From positions 1 through 28,658 of IMG/VR virus record IMGVR_UViG_3300049222_000660: a DNA stretch of 28,658 nucleotides; one strand, given 5' to 3'. Numbering within the stretch: position 1 is the first letter of the stretch; each line of letters starts with the position of its first letter. A model generated the notes under the pieces. The model did not search any database, was not told where the DNA came from, and saw only the letters and a list, made by a program, of their open reading frames with translations. The stretch is from a virus. Shown here one piece after another: positions 23,956-27,024 of this stretch. A program made the translations under genes and the position numbers.

Positions 23956-24039
23956 TTAATAATCTTCATTTTTATGTTCGATTACTGCGCGGATGAGGCC
24001 GAGGATTACTGAGACAACAATGATTAAAGTCGGATCCAC
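23956..24039 (-). CDS. Tiny membrane peptide, family member 3 (27 aa)
   Basis: Starts at a GTG overlapping the TAG of the glycosylase-like gene (TAGTG). The product is (V/M)DPTLIIVVSVILGLIRAV with a charged tail. It has the same layout as the peptides at 13518 and 17389: an early Asp, about 16 hydrophobic residues with a central Gly, then a short polar tail. Confidence 0.55.
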   Translation of the reverse strand: MDPTLIIVVSVILGLIRAVIEHKNEDY

Positions 24040-24614
24040 TATGCTGTGCCAGAATACTTCTTCCAGATTTCTAAATCAAGATCAGTCACTGACTTGCCTA
24101 GTTGTCGGGCGATGTTCTTGAAGATGTTGGCGAAATAATAGTATGTATTCTCATTAGTTGGGGTGCTCTTCGGGGCGTCACTGTATCCTTGATCACGAAG
24201 GAACCTTAAGATATGTGTGTCGAGCATTGGTTCGTCAAAGTCTTCGCGACTATGAGAAAGAAAGAATCTTGCTGTTTTGAGCCCGATGCCAGCAACCTGT
24301 AGCAAGCGGTTAAGCGTAACGGTTTGGAGGTCTTGGATCTTTGATGCGGAGACATAAGAATTGTATCTTTGCTTGTATGGGCTAAGCTTTGCCCAATGCA
24401 TGATCTCTTGCAGCCGGCCCAATTTAATCAATTTTCTTATACAATTAAATGGAGTAGTTTCTTTTGTTATATCTTTTGCTCTTTCAATAAACACTTCTAA
24501 TTTAGGTGCTTCAATTGAGCTTTTCTTTCCTGCTACATTAATACAAAATAAAATAAATTCTTCTAATTCGTATTGTGTTCTATTATAATTTGTTACTTCC
24601 GCTGGATTAATCAT
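24039..24614 (-). CDS. HhH-GPD-like DNA glycosylase
   Basis: A 191-residue helical protein. LLQVAGIGLKTARFFL (104-119) is a helix-hairpin-helix DNA-binding motif, and MLDTHILRFL (130-139) has the catalytic Asp position (D132) of the endonuclease III/MutY superfamily. The Lys of bifunctional enzymes and a C-terminal iron-sulfur cluster are not evident, so a monofunctional glycosylase, or an inactive relative, is likely. Substrate unknown; it could act on modified or damaged bases. It lies 18 nt after the preceding gene, with an A-rich leader. Confidence 0.7.
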   Translation of the reverse strand: MINPAEVTNYNRTQYELEEFILFCINVAGKKSSIEAPKLEVFIERAKDITKETTPFNCIRKLIKLGRLQEIMHWAKLSPYKQRYNSYVSASKIQDLQTVTLNRLLQVAGIGLKTARFFLSHSREDFDEPMLDTHILRFLRDQGYSDAPKSTPTNENTYYYFANIFKNIARQLGKSVTDLDLEIWKKYSGTA

Positions 24615-24632: not shown

Positions 24633-24887
24633 TTATTGTGCAATGTGGAGTGCAGTGCGAAGATTGTCGCAATCTTGCCCGCAAAGAAATACTTCCCTAC
24701 AATAGTCGATGTTTTTTGACTCAATATGTTTGATGAGTTTTACTGCTTGATGAGCAGGAACTCGATCGCGAGGCATACCGCCCCATTTGATTACAACTTT
24801 CATGTGTGGAAAGTGTTCGTTGATTTCGGCGAGTTGATCTTTGTTTAGGTATCCGTAGTTCGCAAGAATGTCTTTTAATGTTTGCAT
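24633..24887 (-). CDS. Small protein (84 aa), unknown function
   Basis: MQTLKDILANYGYLNKDQLAEI, VVIKWGGMPRDRVPAHQAVKLIKHI and CREVFLCGQDCDNLRTAL. Three Cys are clustered near the end. The start at 24887 is set by the promoter; an upstream ATG in frame would place the promoter inside the gene. It forms an operon with the glycosylase-like gene. Confidence 0.6.
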   Translation of the reverse strand: MQTLKDILANYGYLNKDQLAEINEHFPHMKVVIKWGGMPRDRVPAHQAVKLIKHIESKNIDYCREVFLCGQDCDNLRTALHIAQ

Positions 24888-24894
24888 GATATCT

Positions 24895-24922
24895 AGTATG
24901 ACAGATTTTTGGTTGTTGTCAA
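24895..24922 (-). promoter_or_regulatory. Leaderless early promoter for the operon starting at 24887
   Basis: TTGACA, 16 nt ending TCTGT, CATACT, then 7 nt to the ATG. Confidence 0.75.
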
Positions 24923-24924
24923 AC

Positions 24925-25262
24925 AAAAAAACCTACCCAAGGAATTTTCCTTGGATAGGCTAATGTGCATGATTAAGAATAAATAGATGTGGGGAAGGAC
25001 TACTGTATACCTCCAACTTTTCGGCGTGAACATCAGTTCATGGTTTACCTACTTCGAACTACAGACTAGACATGGTATTTGTCGTTTGGCTCATTCGATT
25101 GAACTCTACCAACCCCACCACAGGGATCTGCATACCTTAGCCCGCTCACGACAGGCTTGTTCGGGTCACCCACAGGAAGTCTCCGTCGAGAACTTCCAAA
25201 GTGTTAAAAAATTTTAAAGATCAATTTATTTTATTTGATTGAGTTTATTTCTCAATTGTTAT
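24925..25262 (-). ncRNA. Candidate structured non-coding RNA
   Basis: A consensus promoter upstream and a strong terminator downstream enclose about 335 nt with no plausible minus-strand gene. The central 230 nt (24,985-25,215) are clearly richer in G+C than the surroundings and full of local stems on the minus strand: GGAAGT-T-CTC-GACG-GAG-ACTTCC, AGCC...GGGCT, GGG-TGA-CCC, TGAAC-ATCA-GTTCA. No tRNA, tmRNA, RNase P, 6S or SRP signature was recognised. The 76-codon plus-strand frame across it lacks a promoter and looks random. It could be a regulatory RNA, a ribozyme or a host-targeting decoy. Confidence 0.55.
24932..24959 (-). terminator. Terminator of the candidate non-coding RNA
   Basis: CCTA-t-CCAAGG-AAAATT-CCTTGG-g-TAGG on the minus strand, followed by TTTTTTT. 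It lies just upstream of the next promoter. Confidence 0.85.
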
Positions 25263-25268
25263 ACGAGT

Positions 25269-25297
25269 ATTATACTCTATATTTGATTAAAAGTCAA
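25269..25297 (-). promoter_or_regulatory. Promoter of the candidate non-coding RNA
   Basis: TTGACT, 17 nt, TATAAT. One of the best promoters in the window, but with no gene start at the usual distance. Confidence 0.8.
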
Positions 25298-25305
25298 ACA
25301 CTTTT

Positions 25306-25560
25306 TTATATATTTGTAATTTTATTATTTGCTACTCTATTTATTCTTAATAGGTCTTGTTGTATTTGATTGATGTATTTGTATGTATTATTTGCATCAA
25401 TTATTTTATTGTTTGGATATTGTGTGCAATGATAAAGATCAGCAATAAATTCATTTAGCTTGGCGAGTTTAACATAAACATATTCTTTTTCAGTTAGCTC
25501 GTTACGAAGTTCTTGTTCTGTGGCGAACATCGAGGCTTTCGGGGATAGTGACTCGATCAT
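25306..25560 (-). CDS. Small helical protein (84 aa)
   Basis: Helical, with EQELRNELTEKEYVYVKLA and a Tyr/Asn/Ile-rich second half ending in INRVANNKITNI. Its ATG overlaps the upstream TAA (TAATG). Not recognised. The coding sequence is extremely AT-rich toward its 3' end. Confidence 0.6.
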   Translation of the reverse strand: MIESLSPKASMFATEQELRNELTEKEYVYVKLAKLNEFIADLYHCTQYPNNKIIDANNTYKYINQIQQDLLRINRVANNKITNI

Positions 25561-26823: not shown

Positions 26824-26900
26824 TGGCGGGATAGACGAGACTCGAACTCGCGACCTTCTGCGTGACAGGCAGACACTCTAACCAACTGAGCTACTACCCC
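26824..26900 (-). tRNA. tRNA-Asp (GTC)
   Basis: Full cloverleaf of 77 nt with encoded CCA. Acceptor GGGGTAG/CTATCCC, D loop AGTTGGTT, anticodon arm TCTGC-CTGTCAC-GCAGA with GTC, T arm with GTTCGAGTC, and discriminator G as expected for Asp. It follows tRNA-Ser by 32 nt on the same strand and probably shares its transcript. Confidence 0.95.
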
Positions 26901-26932
26901 GATTATTTGATGAAAAAATTTGTATAATTAAG

Positions 26933-27024
26933 TGGCGGAGAAAGAGGGATTCGAACCCTCGGAAGAACTTTCGTCCTTCAGCAGTTTAGCAAACTACCGC
27001 ATTCGACCACTCTGCCATTTCTCC
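26933..27024 (-). tRNA. tRNA-Ser (GCT)
   Basis: A class II tRNA of 92 nt with encoded CCA. Acceptor GGAGAAA/TTTCTCC, anticodon arm GTAGT-TTGCTAA-ACTGC with GCT, a long variable arm (GGACGAAAGTTCTTCC region), T arm GAGGG-TTCGAAT-CCCTC, discriminator G. It would read AGC/AGT codons. Confidence 0.95.

Follow-up and report, generated by a model that had tools for sequence, protein, structure and literature searches.

What is made from the roughly 335 nucleotides that lie between a consensus promoter and a strong terminator on the minus strand of a 28.7-kb viral fragment (28,658 nucleotides in all, here called the window)? The original prediction was a structured non-coding RNA with a promoter and a terminator of its own, and both signals were located. 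The sigma-70 promoter, TTGACT-N17-TATAAT, lies at 25297-25269 (-), with the -35 at 25297-25292 and the -10 at 25274-25269; it matches the consensus at 11 of 12 positions and is expected to start transcription near 25262. The intrinsic terminator (24961-24930, minus strand) combines a 14-pair stem, a 4-nt loop and a T run. The implied transcript extends from about 25262 to 24925, in agreement with the length estimated earlier. The composition of the interior, described as unlike anything around it, is indeed distinct from that of the adjoining segment (GC 0.49 at 25000-25199 against 0.195 at 25200-25399), but the description was too strong, since GC reaches 0.455 at 24100-24399 and 0.44 in the tRNA stretch. 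As had been claimed, nothing gene-like is present between promoter and terminator. The sole ORF of at least 50 aa across the element (24987-25217, plus strand; 76 aa) has no match in PHROG, Pfam or a phage tblastn search, and some of the indels among related RNAs, seen in the class-B core alignment presented below, are not multiples of three. These two results rule out a protein-coding reading.

The RNA was identified by a cmscan search against Rfam 15. The manA model (RF01745) matches 24984-25197 (-) from end to end, covering all 192 model positions with a score of 78.1 bits (curated gathering threshold, 55.2 bits). This overturns the earlier statement that no known phage RNA fits. The part of that statement dismissing GOLLD and ROOL was right: apart from manA, the scan of the window returned only two tRNAs, and no other Rfam family rose over threshold at the RNA locus. 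The core is placed at 24984-25200 (-) on the basis of the Rfam match, a conserved UUUGG start at 25200 and covariation. Its homology to RF01745, as judged from the model match, establishes the window RNA as a divergent member of the manA family. That family was first described in 2010 by Weinberg et al., from cyanophages and marine metagenomes, and was rated a certain cis-regulator and probable riboswitch (PMC2864571). The family also figures in an Rfam update (PMC7779021). Rfam assigns RF01745 the type Cis-reg, and the manA RNA noted in cyanophage S-CREM1 is still called cis-regulatory (PMC9964418). The literature searched, whose coverage is incomplete, yielded no description of a free-standing or boxA-led manA RNA. 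The family is already known; what appears new is a divergent, boxA-led and apparently stand-alone subfamily.

To collect relatives, 2.9 million viral contigs were scanned for sequence patterns, and whole records were then scored with Rfam. Two clear classes emerged above the cut-off: class A, of the cyanophage type, with 169-187 bits, and class B, with 64-93 bits. A few weaker relatives scored 16-49 bits. The window RNA belongs to class B, represented here by 41 loci from uncultured tailed phages. Each record, contigs longer than 100 kb included, holds one full manA match; one record has an additional 16-bit fragment. A class-A query retrieved 37 records from the phage collection, all cyanophages or marine single-cell viruses. 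Unlike cyanophage manA, class B is absent from the cultured phages searched: a blastn search of 50,697 phage records with the element yielded AT-rich chance pieces only and no cultured member. When 84,980 bacterial and archaeal genomes were searched for exact copies of a 17-mer from group B, 68 matches emerged, none accompanied by the second manA motif; these matches are due to chance.

An alignment of 32 distinct class-B cores was analysed with RNAalifold and a covariation scan. In the window (minus-strand coordinates throughout), the P1 hairpin (25175-25197; compensatory changes in 5 of 7 pairs) precedes the 5′ strand of a closing helix, UGUGGG (25169-25174), which pairs with CCCACA (24988-24993). 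This helix, counted for covariation on the same alignment, is invariant within group B and reads GGGAG/CUCCC in group A. It encloses the P2 hairpin (25139-25157), the P3 domain (25060-25132) with P4 inside it (25088-25110), and a final hairpin (24994-25014) that carries the conserved GGUAUACAGUARUCC and was defined by alignment and covariation. Compensatory changes affect 4 of 6 pairs in P3 and 4 of 7 in P4. The P2 loop, CGUGA (25146-25150), forms the 5′ strand of a pseudoknot whose 3′ strand is UCACG (25025-25029). Covariation supports this pairing: four sequences combine CG to GC with GC to AU, and one (L181) has GC to UA. The corresponding pairing in class A is GGCA/UGCC, lengthened to GGCAU/AUGCC where the loop permits, so that in either class the P2 loop can find a partner in the 3′ domain. 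In the 2010 paper (PMC2864571), a manA pseudoknot carries a question mark; it may be the P2-loop pseudoknot or another. We had also considered the long-range UGUGGG/CCCACA helix as a pseudoknot and rejected it as nested, the real pseudoknot being the one formed by the P2 loop.

Pairing is preserved in 98.8% of the cells of the alignment, compared with 90.8% when the 3′ letters are shuffled; when the partner is slid by one to three columns, only 41-53% of cells pair. Both sides have changed in compensatory fashion at 21 of the 46 pairs. The check for homologues that vary without keeping their pairing thus came out in favour of structure. Folding against shuffled controls, also among the checks proposed, gave modest energies for the core alone (z = -1.8 and -1.5) and z = -3.05 for the whole transcript including the terminator. 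The case for structure rests on covariation, the z-scores of the core being weak. Those scores and the 76-aa ORF are what could be quoted for a protein gene or for GC enrichment by chance; the strong covariation refutes that explanation and the Rfam match speaks against it too, as do the missing protein matches and the indels, leaving it virtually no credit. Compensatory changes thus show that class B has kept a compact predicted fold made up of the closing helix, P1 to P4, the final hairpin and the P2 loop-3′ domain pseudoknot. The closing helix, P1 to P3, the UAAGGU and GUGGUG segments and the final hairpin are common to the window RNA and RF01745. The penultimate hairpin of the Rfam consensus does not appear to form in the window, where its outer pairs are non-standard; both classes have at that place a hairpin followed by the pseudoknot strand.

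Is this RNA a leader of the gene that follows? A sigma-70 promoter lies upstream of the RNA in the 41 class-B loci and mostly matches the consensus at 10-12 of 12 positions, lower scores being found in loci cut off by a contig end or containing long inserts. In 38 of the 41, a terminator with a stem of 8-16 pairs follows the core at a distance of 7-178 nt, and these terminators are unrelated in sequence. The exceptions are L033, with an imperfect terminator, and L006 and L179, with none; at these two loci, which lack a terminator (L006 also has an ORF 28 nt downstream), the RNA could be a leader. The next gene in the window (24633-24887, minus strand) encodes 84 aa (MQTLKDILANYGY...), appears leaderless and has a separate promoter, TTGACA-N16-CATACT, at 24895-24922 (-), 7 nt before the ATG. 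No match to its product was found in PHROG, Pfam or phages. The same arrangement, with the next gene's own promoter directly after the terminator and its -10 located 6-7 nt from the ATG, recurs in 26 of 36 distinct loci. With such a promoter near its ATG, the next gene cannot have the RNA as the 5′ UTR of its main mRNA. In the window and in most of group B, therefore, the RNA does not occupy the 5′ UTR of a gene it might control, an outcome that does not necessarily extend to cyanophages. We do not think that the 84-aa gene is regulated in cis by the manA RNA.

These data bear on the riboswitch suspected by Weinberg et al., in which a ligand bound to the core would control the terminator and hence the 84-aa gene. 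The Rfam type, the leader positions of manA in several cyanophages and the rating given in 2010 (PMC2864571) all speak for such a role. In a swap test, however, terminator arms formed 6.8 contiguous pairs with their own RNA and 7.1 with the RNA of other loci. As the arms pair no better with their own RNA, nothing points to a riboswitch platform, and the terminator was rejected as one. Taken with the variable distance between core and terminator and the promoter of the next gene, this makes a riboswitch quite improbable in class B. Comparison of the loci instead gives good support to the view that the class-B locus forms a transcription unit of its own, running from a sigma-70 promoter to a terminator and followed by a gene that is self-promoted. 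Class B differs in this, and in its boxA leader, from the catalogued manA.

Promoters close to the start codon are found elsewhere in the window. Six minus-strand ATGs (26764, 26317, 24887, 23661, 20291 and 19044) are preceded by a recurring promoter, TTGAC[AT]-N16/17-(C)TG(T/C)CATA[CA]T, with the -10 exactly 7 nt before the ATG, a spacing that implies leaderless phage mRNAs. Among plus-strand genes (14543, 16018, 16891 and 17640), the gap from -10 to ATG is 5-8 nt. In four other loci (L013, L080, L037 and L089), an extra block of about 100-150 nt, alike across loci (ATCGCCTGTTGGGTAACTCAATAAAAGC and ATCGCCCTTCCCGTAACTACATAAAAGC), separates manA from the terminator. No other Rfam match was found in it, and it looks like a second RNA co-transcribed with manA.

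The segment between the promoter and the core contains two further elements. A leader hairpin, TTGAGAAATAAACTCAA (25239-25255, minus strand), occupies the place of the pre-boxA hairpin in the E. coli rrnB leader, and is followed by a boxA-like element, GATCTTTAAAATTTT (25208-25222, minus strand), a match of the GNTCTTTWH type. This motif is found in 31 of 32 distinct class-B leaders, where 0.85 would be expected in shuffled sequences; because the leaders are related, the figure does not stand for 31 independent events. A TTGAG..CTCAA hairpin is present in 20 of the 32. The published gamma-proteobacterial boxA is GYTCTTTAANA (PMC5725501); 8 of the 32 leaders match it exactly and 31 nearly. The window version, GATCTTTAAAA, departs from it once, with an A at the Y, and counts as a candidate boxA. 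In the rrnB leader of E. coli, as read from MG1655, hairpin, boxA and stable RNA follow in this same order; class B thus shares with rRNA operons a promoter, hairpin, boxA and untranslated structured RNA in the same succession. Unlike the product of those operons, the window RNA is non-ribosomal: matches to E. coli 16S and 23S rRNA, whether as similarity or as complementarity, were no better than those of shuffled sequences, and mimicry of or pairing with rRNA was discarded. One 12-mer of cyanophage manA occurs in 23S rRNA; 1.5% of shuffles do as well, it was one of eight comparisons and it is absent from group B, and we take it to be chance.

Several class-B loci (L023, L028, L030, L033, L079, L082, L084, L086, L160, L167 and L171) are interrupted between boxA and core by an insert that varies and is bounded on its two sides by an inverted repeat, boxA still being kept. 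The repeat is exemplified by GGAGCAAATAAGTTGGCAACTGAGTATCGGGCGCCGACTTGCTCC in L167, and CTGAGTATCGG is common to several inserts. The insert may be one more small RNA module.

The order promoter, boxA, structured RNA, terminator and genes resembles that of the lambda early operon, and boxA is an antitermination element. The RNA might accordingly be a cis-acting leader for processive antitermination, boxA and RNA modifying the polymerase to pass the terminator into the following genes. Lambda nut, HK022 put and the Bacillus EAR element likewise place a structured RNA and boxA near the promoter and before a terminator. In the window, cmscan gave no Rfam hit for these three elements. They act in cis on downstream genes, whereas the downstream gene of the window has its own promoter; read-through would be unneeded at the 26 of 36 loci with a self-promoted gene after the terminator, and the copies of a third group, described below, are followed by tRNAs. 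We consider antitermination unlikely. A different use of a conserved boxA-like leader would be as a decoy, the RNA's boxA titrating NusB/NusE and so weakening host rRNA synthesis. This would leave the strong conservation of a 210-nt core unexplained, and cyanophage manA lacks such a leader; a decoy role seems highly improbable.

In the cyanophage class A, the neighbouring genes are diverse. In cultured cyanophages they include gp32, pstS with small ORFs followed by talC, gp23 with hypothetical genes, purL/hsp20, talC, and the ferredoxin/psbA region. There is no boxA leader, the promoter directly abutting the RNA. The loci read have no separate terminator, and the RNA is often 25-80 nt before a gene. 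In most class-A copies (L004-L047, L165-L177) a T run is only a few nt away from CUCCC, a strand of the closing helix, and the helix itself might act as the terminator. With no separate terminator and a T run after the closing helix, both self-termination and a leader role are possible for class A. An opposite-strand next ORF in P-TIM68, considered as evidence against a leader, was dropped, as a plausible plus-strand ORF exists there. A third group consists of five contigs (L166, L169, L172, L196 and L197) in which boxA (GTTCTTTGACATTT) is followed by an RNA of about 300 nt and then by tRNA-Arg and/or tRNA-Thr. The two members scanned, L166 and L172, give full-length but sub-threshold manA matches of 31-34 bits. 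A further manA-like match of 29 bits (L027:8240-8480, minus strand) lies within a 28-tRNA array, with tRNA-Ser and tRNA-Arg on either side. Tentatively, the third group and the L027 copy fit a stable-RNA gene better than a cis-regulator.

We regard it as probable that the window locus is an independent gene for a structured non-coding RNA of the manA family, made with the assistance of Nus factors and acting in trans. This reading draws on the Rfam match and covariation, on the conserved promoter-boxA-terminator arrangement with terminators unrelated in sequence, on the self-promoted next gene, on terminator arms devoid of RNA-specific pairing and on the single full copy per contig. It draws also on the diversity of class-A neighbours, the boxA-led weak relatives before tRNAs and the rrnB-like order of hairpin and boxA. 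By analogy with rRNA operons, the leader hairpin and boxA would recruit a host complex containing NusB/NusE. The Nus complex is reported to block Rho on reporters and to promote the folding of rRNA (PMC5725501); the list of Nus targets in that study left non-coding RNAs out of consideration. Here it might keep RNA polymerase from terminating prematurely (through Rho) while a long, pseudoknotted RNA that is not translated is being made, and help that RNA to fold. Once finished, the manA RNA would work in trans in the infected cell; the likeliest mode is binding of a protein to the conserved unpaired segments GUGACYGAA, UAAGGU, GUGGUG, UACCA and UAUACAGUA. Nus dependence, trans action and protein binding of the class-B RNA are what we infer from these features.

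With slightly more doubt than belief, the proposal may be extended to the whole family: manA would be a phage-encoded stable RNA acting in trans and no riboswitch, synthesized in several phage groups in the rRNA-like, Nus-assisted manner, alone or with tRNAs, and in cyanophages from an independent gene merely sited before various genes. From 2010 onwards manA has figured as a probable cis-regulator without an assigned ligand or function. A large subfamily built as a gene apart, behind an rRNA-like leader, suggests treating manA as trans-acting and seeking a partner rather than a ligand. GOLLD and ROOL are free-standing structured RNAs of phages or mobile elements, sometimes close to tRNA genes; they are much longer and belong to other families. 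Class-B manA would add a small, compact member to that short list and would be a case of a phage equipping a non-ribosomal RNA with a boxA leader. Its covarying pseudoknot is a defined structure open to testing.

Also encoded in the window are a large terminase subunit, PhoH, a weak sigma-70 region-2-like protein, a Gp88-like protein, an ERCC4-type nuclease and a DUF932 protein. Its terminase shares only about 25% identity with those of isolated phages, and its Gp88-like protein about 45% with proteins of scattered marine and other phages; a host was not found through the relatives of either. Genes for tRNA-Asp and tRNA-Ser lie at 26824-27024 (-), about 1.8 kb upstream of the RNA gene, and the boxA-like leader sequence does not recur before them. 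At 24039-24614 (-) the window encodes a 191-aa protein of PHROG 11575, with a weak match, just below the Pfam cut-off, to an 8-oxoguanine glycosylase-like helix-hairpin-helix.
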